From Paenisporosarcina antarctica (GTDB lineage Bacteria; Bacillota; Bacilli; Bacillales_A; Planococcaceae): a stretch of 64,000 nt of DNA. A program made the position numbers and the translations under genes. The notes below the pieces were generated by a model. It searched no databases. It saw only the letters and a list, made by a program, of their open reading frames with translations, and was not told the origin of the DNA. Location: the NCBI RefSeq assembly GCF_004367585.1, contig NZ_CP038015.1:2734001-2798000 (forward strand), given 5' to 3'. Below are positions 8,991 to 61,281 of the stretch, one piece after another (position 1 is the stretch's first letter; every line of letters starts with the position of its first letter).

Positions 8991-9280
8991 AGGGACATTG
9001 TTGTCTGACTTAAGATCAGGATAGTATACGAAACTCTATTTTTTTATATATGGGTTTATGGAAATTGTAGATAGTGTAAAGAATGCAAATAGAGGCCGAA
9101 ATTGTATCTTCGGCCGAATGTCTTTTTGCAGCAAGTGTCCATTCCCTAGTTAACCGAAATCATAGATCTGCGCACGAAAAGGTTGTAGGAGAGCGACGTG
9201 CCAACGTCACATCGCTCGTTTTCTTCATTCCTAGGTTATCCTGCAGCGGATTTTGCCGTCCATAGCGAACCGGAAACCAT
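8991..9280 (+). repeat. Dispersed element R, copy 1
   Basis: About 290-bp element from AGGGACATTGTTGTCTGA to CGAACCGGAAACCAT. It contains the GGCCGAA/TTCGGCC hairpin (9094-9115), a TAGTTAACC block, and a second hairpin with arms GAGCGA/TCGCTC. It is homologous along its length to 12385-12721 and in part to 14165, 17525, 17863, 24451 and 34271. No transposase gene is inside. Confidence 0.8.
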
Positions 9281-9296
9281 ATACAGTGTAGAACAT

Positions 9297-9379
9297 ACAT
9301 CTTTCACTTTGAGATTTCCATACATTCCCTTGGTTATCGTTGAAGCTGGTTTGCCGTCCAAAGCGCTCCGAAACCATAG
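9297..9379 (+). repeat. Dispersed element R, truncated 3' copy
   Basis: Repeats only the 3' part of element R (TTCCCTTGGTTATCG to GCGCTCCGAAACCATAG) immediately after the full copy at 8991-9280. It is degenerate compared with the full copies. Confidence 0.55.
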
Positions 9380-9523
9380 TCGGGGCAGTGTGACAAACTC
9401 TTCTTTCCAAATTTCCATAAATCTTTTTTCGTAGAATTTTCGGTATTTTCAAATAATATGGTAGAATATACAGATAATCCTACTATTCTATCGAATAAGG
9501 GAACTCAGAAAGGAAGATGTTCA

Positions 9524-12034: not shown

Positions 12035-12384
12035 ACCAATCGCCCCCTAGTATGAATACTGCGTTTTCTAATTTCTTGATTACAACTTATTAAACTTTCC
12101 AGGCCCGTTAATTATAGATTAATCCTACTCAGGTAGTTGCACTAGCCAATCACCCTATACTATTTACTGGAGGAACGATGATTAGATCAGCTAACAACTT
12201 AATAATTCTCCTAAACCATGCTACTTCTTGATTTCTTTAAGTAATTCTTTCACAATCTCTGTATTAATTTTAACATAAATATTCAGAAAAATTTGTAAAT
12301 TACAGTATTGCAGAGGATCTGATGGTTTTGTTCTTTTCACTATGCTCCTGCCCGAGTTCACATACATATGAAGTCCAAAAATCG
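12035..12384. other. Intergenic DNA
   Basis: AT-rich DNA between the DUF6366 gene and repeat R copy 2. I see no gene, terminator or repeat in it. Confidence 0.4.
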
Positions 12385-12721
12385 AGGGACATTGTTGTCT
12401 GAAGTAGGATTCGGATAATATGCGAAACCCAACTTTTTAAAAATGAGGGTTTATGGAATTATAGCTATTATAAAGAATGCATGTAGAGGCCGAAATTGCA
12501 TCTTCGGCCGATTGTCTTTTTGCAGTACGTGTCCATTCACTAGTTAAACCAAAATCAAAGACCTGTGCACGTCCATGTTTTTGGAGAGCGATGGACGCAC
12601 ATCAGCGGATTACCTATATGAACGAGGGAGAATCGAAGTGACAACTTCACTTCGATTCTCGTTTTCATTCTCTCGGTTATGGTTGCCGTATCTTTGCCCT
12701 CCATAGCGAACCGGAAACCAT
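12385..12721 (+). repeat. Dispersed element R, copy 2 (longest)
   Basis: Full-length copy, AGGGACATTGTTGTCTGA to GCGAACCGGAAACCAT. It contains the GGCCGAA/TTCGGCC hairpin and a hairpin with 14-bp perfect arms at 12628-12641 and 12647-12660 (core GAAGTGA/TCACTTC). It is homologous to copy 1 along its full length. Confidence 0.85.
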
Positions 12722-12743
12722 GTTTAACAATGGAAACTTGCTA

Positions 12744-14164: not shown

Positions 14165-14237
14165 ATGCTTTTGCAGTAAGTGCCATTCACTAGTTAACCC
14201 AAAATCAAAGACCTGTGCACGGAGCGAACCGGAAACC
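14165..14237 (+). repeat. Dispersed element R, copy 3 (internally deleted)
   Basis: Holds the middle block (TTTTGCAGTAAGTG to GACCTGTGCAC) fused directly to the 3' end (GCGAACCGGAAACC). The hairpin segment between them is missing, which indicates an internal deletion. Confidence 0.7.
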
Positions 14238-14266
14238 TCAGATGATAGTGTGTTTGAATATAACAA

Positions 14267-17524: not shown

Positions 17525-17801
17525 TAAAATGGGATTGCAGATACTTTAAAACGAGATTAGATCGGCAGAAATTGTATCTTCGGCCGATCTTTTTCAAGAC
17601 AGTAAGTGTCCCTTCTCTAATTAACCCAAAATCAAAGAATTGTGTACGTCATGTTTGTAGGCGAGCGACGGACGCACACCCGCCGCAGGATTGCCTATAA
17701 GAACGAGCGAAGATAGAAGTGACAACGTCACTTCTATCTTCGCTTTCATTCCCTAGGTTATGATTGCAGCAGTTTTGCCGTCCAAAGCGATCCGGAAACC
17801 A
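17525..17801 (+). repeat. Dispersed element R, copy 4
   Basis: Near-full copy, with a diverged left hairpin and a 17-bp perfect hairpin at 17707-17723 and 17727-17743 (core GAAGTGAC/GTCACTTC). It ends at GATCCGGAAACCAG. Confidence 0.8.
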
Positions 17802-17862
17802 GAGTAGACGCAGGGGTTCTATAGGTTCTGCCCTTTATCTTTTCTTTCTGTAAAGTGTTACG

Positions 17863-18143
17863 AGAGGATGTTGCGAACGGTATAGTATGCGAAACCCTTC
17901 TTTCAAGTAACGCAGAATAATATTATATAGGTAGCAACAAGCCGCCGAAATTGCATCTTCGGCTGCTTCCTTTCTCAGCAATAAGTATCCCTTCTCTATT
18001 TAACCCAAAATCAAAAAACTGTACACTCCATGGTTGAAGGAGAGCGACGGACGCACAACAGCCGTAGGATTGCCTATCTTCGCTTTCATTCCCTAGGTTA
18101 TGGTGCAGCTTGTTTGCCGTCCAAAGCGAACCGGAAACCATAG
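17863..18143 (+). repeat. Dispersed element R, copy 5
   Basis: Copy with GCCGAAATTGCATCTTCGGC near the left, TTAACCCAAAATCAAA in the middle, and CGAACCGGAAACCATAG at the end. The core hairpin is deleted (GCCTATCTTCGCTTTC joins directly). A short 3' echo (TTTCATTCCCTAGG) follows at about 18188-18202. Confidence 0.75.
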
Positions 18144-18289
18144 TCGATACATTATAGAAAATCCTTCTTTCACTTGGAGATCTACGCTTTCATTCCCTAG
18201 GATTGTCTCAATTATTTCACGTGGAACTATTTAATTTTTCTTCGATACTAACTAAAGAAGGCCTTACACCTAAAAATGGACACATAAAA

Positions 18290-34270: not shown

Positions 34271-34511
34271 CTTGGTTTCCAAATCGCCATAGCCGGCAAT
34301 CTTGCTGCAAATATAACCTAGAGCATGAATTCGAAGCAAGAAGTGACGTTGTCAATTATTGCATCAATCGTTCTATAGGCAATCTCGCGGCGGATTGTTC
34401 GTCCGTCGCTCTCCTATAACCTTCACGTGTACAGGACTTTAAGTTTGGTTTATCTAGAGAATAAACCTAGTTCCTTGTAAAACAGATGAAAATACAATTT
34501 CGACCGATTTC
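34271..34511 (-). repeat. Dispersed element R, copy 7 (inverted)
   Basis: Reverse-oriented copy. Read on the minus strand it runs from GGTCGAAATTGTATTTT through GGAGAGCGACGGACGA and GACAACGTCACTTCT to GGAAACCAAGG. The left arm of the core hairpin is lost. Confidence 0.7.
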
Positions 34512-34839
34512 TACTCATTTTGAAGTATCTGCAGTCCGCAAACCCACAGTCTGGAAATTTGTAAAGCTGTGTTTTTCACTCATTCAGTCGCTTTTCAAAC
34601 ACAATTCCCCATCGATTTGAGGACAACATCGGCATGTGAATTCCCACAGGAGCGTAGCGAAAACAAAAGCATTTTAGCTCTTTCCCTCCCAGCAAAACCC
34701 GCCAATCACTGCGGCGTGGCCATGAATCACTTCATCCTTTCTACTATTTAGGTACGAAATCTTGATTTGTACTGCCGGATGCCTCCGCCAGCTATTTTTG
34801 TGACAAGAAGTGATGGATATCGTTTCCATTATTTCACTA

Positions 34840-34935
34840 TTACAACGTGACGCTCAATTTTTACAACGTGAACTCACTTTTTTACAACTTCACCTTCAAT
34901 AATTACAACGTAACTCCTCATAATTACAACTGAGC
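34840..34935. repeat. Phased short-repeat array B (core TTACAACGTGA)
   Basis: TTACAAC words begin at 34840, 34861, 34882, 34903 and 34924, exactly 21 bp apart. A sixth at 35009 lies 85 bp (about 4 x 21) further on. The intervening ~10 bp vary. Not open for translation throughout. Confidence 0.85.
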
Positions 34936-35052
34936 CTTCGCTCGACAAGAGATAGTATATTTCAATACCCGACAATTACTGAGGCAGGGATACCGTGATC
35001 CATCATTTTTACAACTGAACTATCAATCGACAAGATACTTGCTTTAATTCAA

Positions 35053-37161: not shown

Positions 37162-37590
<429 letters not shown>

Positions 37591-44647: not shown

Positions 44648-44725
44648 TTTATACTCGTTTATTTGGATTTGACCCCATTTTCTAGGTGTTTATCCCTGTT
44701 CACGATTGCTTTATTCCCTTTAACC
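44648..44725. repeat. Phased short-repeat array E
   Basis: TTT words begin at 44648, 44668, 44689 and 44710 (20, 21, 21 bp), followed by TA-T-CC-type cores such as TTTATCCCTGTTC and TTTATTCCC. This is a degenerate array with the same spacing as the others. Confidence 0.55.
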
Positions 44726-44744
44726 GCGCTTTAAAAAACAAAAA

Positions 44745-46656: not shown

Positions 46657-47180
46657 AAGGTTCCTTCTTGATTTAATTGGTTTTGTTTTTTGCTGCGCTG
46701 CTGTTTGGGCAGAGTAAACTTCGTTTAAAAATGGCATCTGCGATTTTAATCCTGTTCATCTTGATTTAATCCCGTTCGCACGTTGTTTATTTCTTTTCAC
46801 GATCACTTTATTCCCGTTCAAAATTTGTTTATTCCTGTTCAACTCCCATTTAATCCCATTCGCCCAATTTCTCCCACAAAAATAACCTGAAACACGTAGT
46901 GTGTAGGGGGCTAATTGGTTTGGTTTTCGCTTCGCTGCTGTTAGAGCAGAGTAAACTTCGTTAGGAAGTGACAGCGGCAATTTTATTCCTGTTCATTTTG
47001 ATTTAATCCCGTTCGCACGTTGTTTATTCCTGTTCACGATCACTTTAATCCTGTTCATACTCCGTTTATTCCTTTTCAACTCCTATTTAATCCCATTCGC
47101 CCAATTTCTCCCACAAAAATACCCCGTAACACGCAGTGTGTAGGGGGCTAATTGGTTTTGGTTTTCGCTTCGCTGCTGTT
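46657..47180. repeat. Two ~240-bp repeat units with phased array C (left pair)
   Basis: Each unit has TCGCTTCGCTGCTGTTAG, GAGTAAACTTCGTT and GTGTAGGGGGCTAATTGG blocks, plus six TTTA(A/T)T cores. Cores start at 46745, 46765, 46786, 46807, 46828, 46849 and, in the second unit, 46982, 47002, 47023, 47044, 47065, 47086. Spacing is 20, then 21 bp throughout. A pair of near-identical units lies at 48350-48872. Confidence 0.9.
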
Positions 47181-47239: not shown

Positions 47240-48202
47240 CTATTTATTATCATTCATGTAATTTAGCATATACTCCCGTTTTTTCTTAGAACCTGATGAA
47301 TCAACATTTAATTTCTCTAGAATTACAGATGCCTGTTTACAGGTTTCAATATGAAGAAAACGTCTGCATTCTTTATTGTTTATTTTCCTATCAATCAACA
47401 TAGCAAAATCGTTAAATGCATTTAGATGCCCTATTTTTGTGGTCTCACCACATTTTTGACATCTCCACTCCCGATATAACTTATTTACAGTAAATTCAGA
47501 GCAGAATTTACAATTGACGCCAGTAATAATATCTTTAGGTTCTATAAAATAATTAGTTGTTATTGGAAAGGGATTGTATTCCTGATGGGCCATTAGAATA
47601 GTATTTAATAGTGTATTTACCTGTTCAGGATTTAATTTCACTTCTGTTCTAGGACGTGTACGTATATAATGCGGCAATTCCTGTAATCCCATAATTGGAA
47701 TTTCTGTTTCATCAAACTGAAGGGAACGATTTGCATCTTTAAAAATAATTACCCGATTGATAGGTATATCGATATTTCTCATATCAAAAAAATCCTGCAA
47801 CAAGTCGGTTATCTCAATTACTTGTCCTATTGGATTTTTATAATAATCAATTTGACCAGAAGTTAACGTTCTTTCTAGCTGAGGATGATTTTTACGAATT
47901 TTAATGTGACCGCCGATATTTTTCATTTCTAAAATAATTACATAATATGGCGTGATTATTAAAGAATCAATCTGAAACCAAGCTGAAGAGTAAAGATGTA
48001 GATCGTGTAAAACATAGTAATCAAATCTAAATTTTACTCGTTCAAAAAGTTTATTTAATAATTCCTCTCCTTTTATACCGGATACGATTTGCCTTTGCAA
48101 CCCGTCTAAAAAAGTATATTGGGGATGCAAAGGAGTTAGCCGCCGAATAGCTGCCTCCACTCCCAATAGTTTCAAAGAATCCGAACGATATTTCATTATC
48201 AT
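47240..48202 (-). CDS. NERD-domain nuclease-like protein with zinc ribbon
   Basis: 320-aa protein. A NERD (nuclease-related) domain lies at about residues 30-160, with IKGEELLNKLF, YYVLHDLHL, QIDSLIITPYYVIILEMKN and the catalytic-type pattern. A C-terminal zinc ribbon has CKFC and CQKC. NERD proteins are often in mobile or defence loci, but the target is unknown. GAGGAG precedes the ATG. It is flanked on both sides by the same repeat pairs. Confidence 0.75.
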   Translation of the reverse strand: MIMKYRSDSLKLLGVEAAIRRLTPLHPQYTFLDGLQRQIVSGIKGEELLNKLFERVKFRFDYYVLHDLHLYSSAWFQIDSLIITPYYVIILEMKNIGGHIKIRKNHPQLERTLTSGQIDYYKNPIGQVIEITDLLQDFFDMRNIDIPINRVIIFKDANRSLQFDETEIPIMGLQELPHYIRTRPRTEVKLNPEQVNTLLNTILMAHQEYNPFPITTNYFIEPKDIITGVNCKFCSEFTVNKLYREWRCQKCGETTKIGHLNAFNDFAMLIDRKINNKECRRFLHIETCKQASVILEKLNVDSSGSKKKREYMLNYMNDNK

Positions 48203-48349: not shown

Positions 48350-48872
48350 ATTTGGGGTTTTGGAAGTTTTGCTAATTGGTTTTTTTCGCTTTGCTGCTGT
48401 TAGAGCAGAATAAACTTCGTTTGAAAGTGCATCTGCAATTTTAATCCTGTTCATTTTGATTTAATCCCGTTCGCACGTTGTTTAATCCTGTTCACGATCA
48501 CTTTATTCCCGTTCAAAATTCGTTTAATCCTGTTCAACTCCTGTTTAATCCCATTCGCCCAATTTCTCCCACAAAAATCCCCCGTAACACGTAGTGTGTA
48601 GGGGGCTAATTGGTTTTGTTTTCGCTTCGCTCGTGTTAGAGCAGAGTAAACTTCGTTAGGAAGTGACATCTGCAATTTTAATCCTGTTCATTTTGATTTA
48701 ATCCCGTTCGCACGTTGTTTAATCCTGTTCACGATCACTTTATTCCCGTTCAAAATTCGTTTAATTCTGTTCAACTCCTGTTTAATCCCATTCGCCCAAT
48801 TTCTCCCACAAAAATACCCCGTAACACGTAGTGTGTAGGGGGCTAATTGGTTTGGTTTTCGCTTCGCTGGTT
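48350..48872. repeat. Two ~240-bp repeat units with phased array C (right pair)
   Basis: Same unit as 46657-47180. Cores start at 48440, 48460, 48481, 48502, 48523, 48544 and 48677, 48697, 48718, 48739, 48760, 48781 (20, then 21 bp each). Short frames inside give a heptad-like peptide (NGIK, NRIK, NGNK), probably incidental. Confidence 0.9.
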
Positions 48873-58565: not shown

Positions 58566-58728
58566 AAGTCTTTTCTTACGATTAGTCAAGTATCCTGTTG
58601 CTTTCCGTTCCAGATGGACGCTTTCCGCGGGCACGGCTTCAGCCTCCTCGTCGCGAAAAACACGCTCCTGTGGGATCTTCAGCTCGCGCTTTTCCCGCTG
58701 GAGTCGCCATCTTGCACTCCAATCAACT
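58566..58728 (+). repeat. GC-rich dispersed element S, copy 3
   Basis: Begins AGTCTTTTCTTACGATTAGT (shared with 24077) and includes GGACGCTTTCCGCGGGCACGG, CCTCCTCGTCGCG, CTCCTGTGGGATC and TTTTCCCGCTGGAGTCGCCA. An inverted copy lies at 59335-59480, with an ISL3 fragment between. Confidence 0.8.
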
Positions 58729-58855
58729 AAAATTGCCCGTTAAAATTGCATAAGAATATACAAATTTCCTGATTCAGTAAAATGCTTAAAAGTAGAATTA
58801 TGCTCCTTTTGAGCGTAATTGTTTTTGTTCGCTTTGTTTATCAGCTGGTTTTAAT

Positions 58856-59152
58856 TTAAAGGGTAAAATAATACGGTTTAAATTGCTTTGCAGCTTGGTT
58901 ATTCAAGCGTTGAACAGTTGTAGGTGAGATGGAACAATCTCTTACCTTAGACGTTAAGGATTGTGCTTCAGCAGACTTTAGTATGACTTGTGCCTTTACA
59001 TTTTGTGAAATATACATATTCTTTTGAACGATAGGTGTTTCAGTGAAACTATAATTACACGCTTTACATATGAAATGTTGCTGTTTCAAAAGTAAATAAG
59101 TTGGATTTACATCCGTAATTGGTAAGGTAATTCGAGATGATTGAGTCCGATT
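58856..59152 (-). pseudogene. ISL3-family transposase N-terminal fragment
   Basis: About 98 codons of the zinc-finger and helix-turn-helix end of an ISL3 transposase: QSSRITLPITDVNPTYLLL, then KQQHFICKACNYSF, then VQKNMYISQNVKAQVI, then SPTTVQRLNNQAAKQF. The catalytic DDE domain is missing, and a stop precedes the first codon. It lies between two inverted copies of element S. Confidence 0.75.
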
Positions 59153-59334
59153 TTAATAAACCGTATAGTCAATTTTTCTGAGACCGCACCCTTGGCGATG
59201 TGTAGGGTTGTCTGTAAATTTCCCAAGGACATATGTACATACTTTCCCTTTAAAAGTCCCTTCTTTTATGAAGTTTTCTTCAAAAGTAGTGGTAGGAATC
59301 TATTTGAACTTATGTTTCCTATATTCTCTTAGCT

Positions 59335-59480
59335 GATTGGAGTGCAGAGCGGCGACTCCGGTGGGATAAGCGTGACAGGTGAGACCCCACAGGAGCACGG
59401 TTTTTGCGACGAGGAGGCTCACCGCACGCCCCACGGAACGCGTCCGCTCGGAACGGAAATCAGCGTGTATCAGGCCTCAT
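59335..59480 (-). repeat. GC-rich dispersed element S, copy 4 (inverted)
   Basis: Reverse-oriented relative to copy 3: GGAGTGCAGAGCGGCGACTC to GGAACGGAAATCAGCGTGTAT, with ACAGGAGCACGG and GACGAGGAGGCTCACCGC. High GC. Confidence 0.8.
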
Positions 59481-59681: not shown

Positions 59682-60296
59682 CTACTCTTTGTCGTACACT
59701 AATGAAGTTTGATGTGTAACACCCGCCGGTACTTCGTGGTGGTGACGACAACGCGGTTCGTAAGCTTCAGTTGCACCAATTAAAATAATTGGATCTTCGT
59801 AGCCTGCTGGTTGTCCGTTGATAAGACGTTGCGTACGACTTGCTGGCGACCCACACACTTGGCATACGGCCTGTAATTTCATGACTTGTTCAGCAATAGT
59901 CATTAATGTCGGCATGGGTCCAAATGGTTCGCCTCGGAAATCTTGATCAAGTCCTGCAACAATTACGCGGAATCCATGATCTGCAAGACGTTGAACGACA
60001 TCAACAATGCCTTCATCAAAAAATTGTGCTTCGTCAATTGCAATAACATCATATTCATCCGAAATATATGCCCAAATATCTTTTGAGCTCTCGACTGGTC
60101 TCGCAATCACTTTTGCACCATTGTGACTCACTACTTCTTCTTCACTATATCGATTATCTATTTGTGGTTTGAACACGGCAATTTTTTGTTTCGCAAATTG
60201 TGCGCGTCGCACTCGACGAATTAATTCTTCTGATTTTCCGGAAAACATACTTCCGCAAATGACTTCAACCCAGCCAGATTGTGACATCACATACAT
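59682..60296 (-). CDS. tdk: Thymidine kinase
   Basis: 204-aa salvage enzyme phosphorylating thymidine. P-loop [24 protein letters not shown] with Walker B acid, and zinc-binding CQVC. C-terminal [19 protein letters not shown] eight bases before ATG at 60294-60296 selects that start over one six codons earlier. Confidence 0.96.
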
Positions 60297-60574
60297 GGAA
60301 GTCACTCCTTTCAAAACTCTCTATGCACTATCATACCCAAAATAGAGATTGATTTCCCGTCTTTTTTTTTATTAGAACATATGCTATGGCGGATTTATGA
60401 AACTAAATATTCACTTGTTAAATTGATGGAGTTGGCAAGTCACGTCTTAAAGAGTTGACTGAGGCAGTGAACAAGATGCATCGAATATGGTTTACGGGTA
60501 GCTTTAGATGACAAACTAGCTAGCATCATAGCCTAAAGAAAACGCTATTTACAAAAATTGTGATAGGTGGTTGG

Positions 60575-60700
60575 TTTATTCGGCTAGAGAGTGGTTTTAT
60601 TCGGCTTCAGACGCTGTTTATTCCGCTTCGTAGTCATTTTAATCGGCTTCGCGGGCCATTTAATCGGCTTCACACCCGGTTTAATCGGCTTCACCCATTA
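60575..60700. repeat. Phased short-repeat array D (core TTTAATCGGCTTC)
   Basis: Cores starting with TTTA begin at 60575, 60596, 60617, 60638, 60659 and 60680, exactly 21 bp apart. Another TTTAATCGGCC occurs at 60768. Cores are TTTATTCGGC early and TTTAATCGGCTTC later; the ~8 bp between are unrelated. Confidence 0.9.
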
Positions 60701-60835
60701 AAAGGGATTATTTGTTCCTATTTTCGCTACGCTTCTGTTATAGTTGTTCATTTCCTATATAACTTGTTTTAATCGGCCAACTCTCACGGAACACTCGAAA
60801 TGAATAGTAGACAGTTCGACACACTAACAACAAAA

Positions 60836-60873
60836 AAATAGTCGCTTAGAGCCGGAGCTCTAAGCGACTATTT
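60836..60873 (-). terminator. Terminator of rpmE
   Basis: AAATAGTCGCTTAGAGC/GCTCTAAGCGACTATTT, 17-bp arms with T-rich flank, just after the rpmE stop at 60879. Confidence 0.93.
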
Positions 60874-60878
60874 GATCA

Positions 60879-61094
60879 TTATTCTTGGATATCTTCTTTA
60901 AGACCATATTTTTTGTTGAAACGGTCAACACGTCCATCCGCTTGCGCGAATTTCTGTTTGCCAGTATAGAATGGATGACATTCTGAGCAAAACTCAACTT
61001 TAATGTCTTCTTTTACTGAACCTGTTACAAATGAGTTACCACATGAACATGATACTGTAGCTACTTTGTGTTGGGGATGAATTCCTGTTTTCAT
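60879..61094 (-). CDS. rpmE: 50S ribosomal protein L31 (zinc-binding type)
   Basis: 71-aa large-subunit protein of the Zn-binding bL31 type: Cys16/Cys18 in VSCSCGNSF and Cys36/Cys39 in [24 protein letters not shown] is the family signature. GAGGAG precedes the ATG at 61092-61094; an upstream nine-codon extension covers that site. Confidence 0.95.
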
Positions 61095-61281
61095 CTTAAA
61101 TCTCCTCTCGCCCTGAACCATCTGGAACAGAGTTGTTTATTTGACTGTTACCTTACACGACCCGTTTAATTCAGTCGTATATGTTACAGAGTATGATAAT
61201 TCTACCGATTCAAATTATAGCAAATATACTTAAAGAAATCAAGTACGTCGTTCAAATAACTACTGAATGAACTACACTTTT

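Follow-up and report, generated by a model that had tools for sequence, protein, structure and literature searches.

Array D lies within the 64,000-nucleotide stretch of DNA analysed here (the window), which corresponds to C1:2734001-2798000 of a 3.97-Mb genome (G000). The array occupies the gap between two genes, past the hairpin of gene 60879-61121 in that gene's direction and ahead of gene 59682-60314; we take the former to encode a protein like ribosomal protein L31 and the latter a protein like thymidine kinase. Its TTTAWTCSGC cores start on the + strand at 60575, 60596, 60617, 60638, 60659 and 60680, every step being 21 bp, and the third core is TTTATTCCGC, in which C replaces G. A preliminary description of this stretch had claimed six cores at exact 21-bp steps, phased by two helical turns on the same face of the DNA, and this was borne out at all six positions. 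The lone core beyond the array (Table 1) is possibly a remnant.

The exact two-core pattern with 21-bp spacing was matched five times in the window and not at all in 100 shuffles. A core-blind scan of the window over periods 14–35 yielded seven clusters at period 21 and between zero and two at every other period, with array D as the top score. One of the seven, at 37263, is marginal and falls within coding-like sequence; the other six are array D, four CC-type arrays and one array with a WTTACAACGTGA core. Pairs of TTTAWTC words (≤1 mismatch) occurred on the + strand 31 times at a distance of 21, 19 times at 42 and 12 times at 63, compared to 3, 1 and 2 times on the - strand, an excess at 21 and 42 bp that agrees with the proposed phasing. 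The preliminary description had also proposed a test for DNA curvature: the predicted static curvature of array D was 83, against 34.5 for letter shuffles (sd 18.6), with assumed wedge parameters. Over 40 arrays, the median z was 1.25, and 35% exceeded 2. Two inverted repeats were found at array D, both imperfect and touching the array end, rather than one per unit, and none was found in one CC array.

Next to the thymidine kinase-like gene, inverted arms at 58641-58730 and 59329-59419 surround ≈600 bp, and this element (58641-59419) looks like a small mobile element. A separate family of dispersed repeats, with motifs like GCCGTCCAAAGCGAACCGGAAACC, is also present in the window.

Table 1. Arrays and associated features, in window coordinates.
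Feature	Position	Strand	Description
GCCGTCCAAAGCGAACCGGAAACC-like repeat copies	9138-9384, 12380-12729, 14183-14247, 17565-18147, 34273-34461	both orientations	
Third-family array	34839..34943	+	core WTTACAACGTGA, five units at 21-bp steps
Degenerate CC-type array	44648..44730	+	≈four units
CC-type array	46745..46869	+	TTTAWTCCYGTTC, six units
CC-type array	46982..47106	+	TTTAWTCCYGTTC, six units
NERD gene	47240..48202	-	320 aa; lies between CC-type arrays; encodes a PD-(D/E)XK nuclease domain, a zinc ribbon and a winged helix (predicted)
CC-type array	48440..48564	+	TTTAWTCCYGTTC, six units
CC-type array	48677..48801	+	TTTAWTCCYGTTC, six units
Array D, GG type	60575..60700	+	six 21-bp units: core TTTAWTCSGCTTCR plus variable part
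Lone TTTAATCGGC core	60768..60777	+	88 bp past last core of array D
Terminator-like hairpin	60836..60873	-	17 pairs; behind gene 60879-61121

Array families and the anatomy of the unit

Three families of array are found in the genome, all phased at 21 bp and all represented in the window: the GG type, to which array D belongs (16 loci), the CC type, TTTAWTCCYGTTC (18 loci), and WTTACAACGTGA, or WTTACAAC type (28 loci). These 62 loci are two-core matches clustered by hand, with the weak single hits at 342080, 969037, 3572466, 81445 and 1897239 omitted. The genome-wide excess at 21 bp that had been predicted was seen for the GG two-core pattern, which gave 94 matches with ≤3 mismatches (some CC arrays included) against 4 for the reversed control. 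The corresponding numbers were 80 and 0 for the CC pattern (≤2 mismatches) and 86 and 0 for the WTTACAAC pattern (≤1 mismatch). A pattern scan of the genome collection returned five stretches. One, from Paenisporosarcina sp. OV554, holds such an array; four derive from MAGs and were viewed by period scan only.

In stretches fetched from the genome, 27 of 47 GG and CC arrays had six units, and 166 of their 219 unit steps were 21 bp and 49 were 20 bp. The 21-bp unit consists of a core of ≈12 bp followed by a variable part. Over 85 GG and 134 CC units, the information content was 0.67–2.0 bits at positions 1–12 and 0.02–0.32 bits at positions 15–21, a contrast that is partly built in, since the arrays were detected via their cores. 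Position 5 is A or T (C and G, 0.00). Positions 5 and 8 of the GG core are linked: among 71 units, 34 had A5-G8, 19 T5-G8, 17 T5-C8 and one A5-C8. Such complementary swaps might be tolerable to a minor-groove reader. Several core families, represented by the arrays of L118, L119, L120 and L159 and by the WTTACAACGTGA arrays, close with one common unit, ACAACTGAGC, after which comes a short hairpin that ends in GCTC.

The preliminary description held that the spacers were unrelated, which is correct within array D, but between some copies elsewhere in the genome the spacers recur, and those arrays were therefore copied whole. It also set the array apart from a tandem minisatellite and from CRISPR; both distinctions stand, the first because the unit is not conserved throughout and the second by the size of core and unit. 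A coding repeat was rejected: 19- and 20-bp steps occur within arrays, and the reading frame is therefore not kept.

NERD genes and the arrays beside them

Between the CC-type arrays of the window lies a gene whose product matches the NERD family (PF08378) at 55 bits, above the curated cut-off of 22.1. At E values up to 1, Pfam returned NERD plus three weak, unrelated families. The residues G..GE, D79, E92 and K94 and four cysteines are invariant in 34 of 34 aligned NERD proteins, and the conserved NERD residues are those of PD-(D/E)XK nucleases. AlphaFold2 modelled the whole protein at a pLDDT of 92.9; for the C-terminal part the value was 87.7. The best fold matches for the N-terminal domain were the nucleases Cdn1, McrC and Can2 (Z about 7), and the C-terminal part aligned with a large number of winged helices, among them AntR, CadC, HpaR and Z-alpha, at Z values near 6.5–7 (about 6–7 over the winged-helix matches as a whole), as well as with proteasome and TREX-2 winged helices, which have other roles. 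These middling Z values indicate the type of fold rather than the function; among the matches listed in the fold searches, none reached an E value of 0.001 or better, and all Z were <8. A sequence search of solved structures gave no match at E < 0.02, and in a search for plasmid or phage carriage the window protein had no match at E 1e-5.

Within this bacterial family, 59 of 61 genomes had a NERD domain match. Full-length relatives are spread over several families of the class, where some match was found in 45 of 121 genomes. An excerpt of a 2022 paper states that, to its authors' knowledge, NERD domain function had not previously been studied experimentally (PMC9040797). In PMC10910872, as far as its excerpt goes, "NERD" is an abbreviation within a figure legend.

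There are five NERD matches in the present genome. Two of them are enclosed by arrays of a single family: CC-type arrays surround the NERD gene of the window, and GG-type arrays the one at C1:3692713. The two proteins are 60% identical, and their cores have TTTAWTC and TTC in common. Two further NERD genes, one of them broken, adjoin 21-bp arrays with other cores, and the fifth match had no 21-bp array within its fetched stretch. In the array-NERD-array units in the window, at C1:3692002-3693456 and in G004, both arrays have the same orientation. At C1:2332000-2338000 (L320), a broken NERD gene has a 21-bp array on each side, the cores resembling TACAACCTGGA. For the WTTACAACGTGA family no intact partner could be named in this genome, and the broken gene may once have been a relative of that family's partner.

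The association extends to other genomes. In the home family, a noncoding 21-bp array lay ≤300 bp beyond the 3' end of the NERD gene at 27 of 40 loci, and at 5 of 122 control genes (P 3.5e-16, Fisher); ≤300 bp before the 5' end, the numbers were 10 of 40 and 4 of 107. In other families the arrays were found 5' of the NERD gene in 10 of 20 loci (4 of 107 control genes; P 6.4e-7) and 3' in 3 of 20 (P 0.08, not significant). The same test at period 20 gave 9 of 40 in the home family and 4 of 20 in other families, as mixed steps would give, and there was no such excess at periods 19, 22, 23 or 24 (at most 3 of 40). Period-21 arrays scored above shuffles in 35 of 40 home-family NERD loci and 9 of 20 control stretches (33 of 40 and 7 of 20 with a stricter cut), and in 12 of 20 loci and 5 of 19 controls for the other families; the controls are contaminated, since some stretches pass on coding repeats and others on genuine scattered arrays.

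The 40 home-family loci were hand-picked, roughly in list order, from the class of about 61–70 bits, skipping contig ends, short frames, frames with stops, higher-scoring types, G000 and some remaining rows. L158, L165 and L175, which represent another protein type, and L163 and L191, which are short, were kept. The 20 loci from other families were also hand-picked, and loci from one genus are not independent. Control stretches came from the same contigs, ≈40 kb from the NERD genes, or from similar places; L265 was dropped due to overlap with a NERD locus. In NERD-free genomes, no noncoding array was found in ≈201 kb, nearly all of it from G075, making this a weak control; the control loci of NERD-bearing genomes gave four in 178 kb. 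In G032, which is NERD-free, 9 of 10 stretches read as N.

The cores vary among NERD loci, for example TTCCAACTTGGA, ACCGCACCTC, AAGTTGATCGTA and CGCTCATAGAA, and the single period of 21 bp is common to many unrelated cores. The NERD-linked arrays of L174, L184, L191 and L193 are far longer, with 15–49 units, and in those of L191 and L174 steps of 19 and 20 bp occur in a fixed pattern.

Variation and inheritance of protein and core

Protein identity was correlated with core similarity across 42 loci (rho 0.262, equalled in 0 of 1000 permutations). By segment, rho was highest for the winged helix (0.227), followed by the linker (0.182), the recognition helix alone (0.177), the nuclease (0.158) and the zinc ribbon (0.129). 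The sample comprised 42 of 64 loci, omitting those with no array scoring 99 or more, proteins of <250 aa, and L158, L165 and L175. A smaller sample of 27 of the 30 array-bearing loci (with a row in A1) gave a rho of 0.214 (2 of 2000).

The same NERD locus in two related genomes, L161 (G081) and L173 (G025), provided a direct comparison. The two differ at 56 of 4000 aligned positions outside L161:2701-3000, and at 110 of 300 inside. This block begins late in the NERD gene, just before the recognition helix, includes the wing, and ends past the array. Before the block, the two proteins differ in three residues; after its start, they read ISSRHAAKRLLRFLPLSYKKGHSYYEIPE and LPSRYAAKRLLRLLPIVKRGKYTYYEIPE, respectively, and the corresponding array cores are TTCGCTCAWC and TTCGCCCGYAAG or similar. 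The word is changed only in part, TTCGC being common to both cores. A more distant outgroup, L164 (G066), has the L173-type helix, core and block. Judged from these alignments, the DNA-reading part of NERD and the array were in this one case exchanged as one block, and this joint exchange of helix and wing with the array is the strongest sign, albeit from a single case, that one reads the other.

For one core, TTCGCCCGNAA, dispersal was followed in 12 genomes. This core adjoins NERD genes in G066 (L164), G025 (L173) and G021 (L187) and lies ≈500 bp from a NERD match in G081 (C45). Core pairs numbered 94 in G066, 14 in G025, 8 in G021 and 9 in G081, and among the eight other genomes there were none in seven and one in G018; G074 had one reversed-control match.

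Where this genome has a GG array between its L31-like and thymidine kinase-like genes, other genomes have different contents. With the core TTCCTACGTGAC, this gap contains an array-NERD-array unit in G004 and one array and one NERD gene in G005, and in G006 an array of TTCCTACGTGAC type within a 3.6-kb stretch that has no NERD-like frame. In G001, the cores are like GCGTAAGATAAC. No array was seen in this gap in G002, G007 or G008, and G003 is broken there. In another lineage, an array common to G025 and G066 is reduced to a single unit in G081, with 84 bp lost. An insertion with a corresponding empty site was not seen; this one close three-way comparison (G025, G066, G081) showed inheritance and loss of units.

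In five pairs of orthologous arrays (G066 compared with G025 or G081), 16 of 147 core sites and 72 of 239 spacer sites differed (P 1e-5), while their flanks, coding and noncoding mixed, differed at 339 of 2107. In the two pairs least affected by the array-finding method, the numbers were 10 of 72 and 40 of 128 (P 0.007). As far as these alignments go, arrays that have become fixed last, and their cores are kept. Constraint on the cores of arrays that have no NERD gene beside them is not required by a purely selfish model, and it suggests that such arrays have a function, either for the host or for a NERD protein encoded elsewhere.

Interpretation and relation to known systems

The link of arrays to NERD genes, the differing cores, the covariation, the swap and the constraint on cores are established at the level of sequence. 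On this basis, array D is probably a copy, without the adjoining NERD gene, of a phased array to which a NERD-domain nuclease would bind, nuclease and array forming a pair that would work like RAYT and REP. Its likely partner is the NERD protein encoded at C1:3692218-3693147, between two GG-type arrays. Each NERD protein would read its own ≈12-bp core via the winged helix, so that several molecules would be lined up along one face of the DNA, with the nuclease domain acting at the array or close to it. Arrays would then be copied to other sites through cutting and inter-array recombination, which might also carry a NERD gene to an array site or remove it, leaving lone arrays where they are harmless, mostly behind gene ends. 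By thus copying both the arrays and the NERD gene enclosed by them, the pair would be RAYT-REP-like in action.

The preliminary description proposed a nucleoid or architectural protein as the ligand. A protein-binding array is still the best reading, but a general nucleoid protein no longer serves as the main one. A dedicated partner is indicated because there are many cores, each with its own NERD, and because one locus shows a joint exchange of helix and core. A general nucleoid protein as sole reader is less likely, as it leaves the many cores and the NERD link unexplained; a structural role of the scattered copies is one possibility.

A further proposal, though a doubtful one, is a new class of nuclease-repeat partnership in which the several NERD paralogues of a genome each have a private word, carried by helically phased arrays scattered behind genes and maintained by selection to direct, restrain or exempt the nuclease. 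Specificity would then change by swapping a cassette of recognition helix, wing and array, and the arrays might act as self tags or DNA-level antitoxins.

It is unlikely that the scattered arrays primarily serve the host, in nucleoid organization, segregation, supercoiling or control of transcription at gene ends, with NERD or another protein as the reader. The constraint on cores at orthologous arrays fits such a role, as does the distribution of arrays. Taking a DnaA-like frame at ≈3.797 Mb as the replication reference, 53 of 62 loci have the same orientation relative to replication, and there is a large array-free gap around the presumed terminus (C1:1239708-2078491, 1.240–2.078 Mb; P about 4e-5 with weak hits omitted). 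With the weak hits at 1897239, inside this gap, and 81445 included, the largest gap is 658 kb (P 4.8e-4). In 36 of the 47 GG and CC arrays, the first predicted frame past the array's 3' end is oriented towards it, and six of the remaining 11 arrays are behind rRNA operons, five of them 317–323 bp past the 5S gene and the sixth at 1.2 kb. The latter probably spread together with the operons, because the 23S-5S parts are near-identical. However, core sequences are unlike among paralogues and among closely related species, the same gap gains and loses arrays, and the shared orientation may be a consequence of gene direction alone.

Self tags or decoys are quite unlikely. On this view the nuclease has other DNA as its target and is bound and restrained, or exempted, by the arrays, and losing arrays would be harmful. 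The invariant nuclease residues, the many arrays per NERD and the constrained cores are all compatible with such a function, but PADLOC gave only a single weak match (E 0.004), and arrays persist beside a broken NERD gene. It is improbable that the arrays are operators through which NERD regulates its own or nearby genes, the scattered copies being by-products. Half of the other-family loci do have an array 5' of the gene, but in the home family the arrays are mostly 3', and the scattered arrays are located behind gene ends.

An RNA element, such as an RNA antitoxin array or a structured RNA, is highly improbable. Most shuffles fold less well than the + strand of array D (z -2.31, 4 of 200 being equally good), and a hairpin closes some arrays ahead of a NERD gene, but this was one strand of four tested, the other three (z 0.72 to 1.24) being no better than shuffles, and the partner protein has a predicted winged helix. 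An ordinary minisatellite grown by slippage is scarcely credible: it would fit the loss of units between cores and the length of some arrays, but spacers within an array are unrelated (in part a result of finding arrays by their cores), the arrays are linked to NERD genes, and one period serves many unrelated cores.

Several known systems resemble the pairing of NERD genes and arrays in part. CRISPR arrays have regular cores and differing spacers, with repeats of >20 bp and spacers of similar or greater length. Here, the whole unit is 21 bp with a core of ≈12 bp, the spacers are inherited rather than newly acquired, the copies are scattered, and the partner is NERD. Iterons and partition-site arrays consist of direct repeats about two helical turns apart that are read by a winged helix, but the present arrays are scattered throughout the chromosome, with many cores and a nuclease domain in the partner. 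Type III toxin-antitoxin systems such as ToxIN combine a short repeat array, a hairpin and a nuclease gene, as do some of the loci described here. However, Pfam identifies the protein as NERD, not a ToxN-type endoribonuclease, and the arrays are found on both sides and scattered, with little RNA structure. SmdA of S. aureus is a NERD membrane protein that lacks several conserved NERD residues (PMC9040797); it has the NERD domain in common with the array-linked proteins, while a zinc ribbon, winged helix and arrays are not mentioned for it in the excerpt of that paper.

The closest likeness is to RAYT-REP/BIME, described in an excerpt of PMC2817692 as a nuclease gene flanked by repeats with which it coevolves, with repeat abundance that tracks the partner, extragenic copies and several classes per genome. 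Here too, gene and repeat coevolve, as seen in both the correlation and the block swap, and for the one core followed the repeat count follows the partner. The differences are in the parts: a PD-(D/E)XK nuclease with a winged helix rather than a tyrosine (Y1/HUH) transposase, phased direct repeats with variable spacers rather than palindromic units, and flanking arrays that are direct, in all three array-NERD-array units, rather than inverted. Among the matches listed in a search of open-licence literature, no title or abstract joined NERD proteins with repeats. The NERD-array pairing appears to be undescribed: to our knowledge neither the NERD nuclease family nor this type of phased repeat is part of any known gene-repeat system. 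In its mode of working the pairing would be close to RAYT-REP.

A cognate DNA word for each NERD gene makes a little-studied domain testable, as nature supplies dozens of protein-site pairs and, at one locus, an exchange of helix and word. If the pair is RAYT-REP-like, it would represent an independently invented system of a gene plus scattered repeats; if the arrays restrain the nuclease, it would be a new mode of self-recognition. The pairs of NERD proteins and cores also form a natural data set for how a winged helix changes its DNA word.
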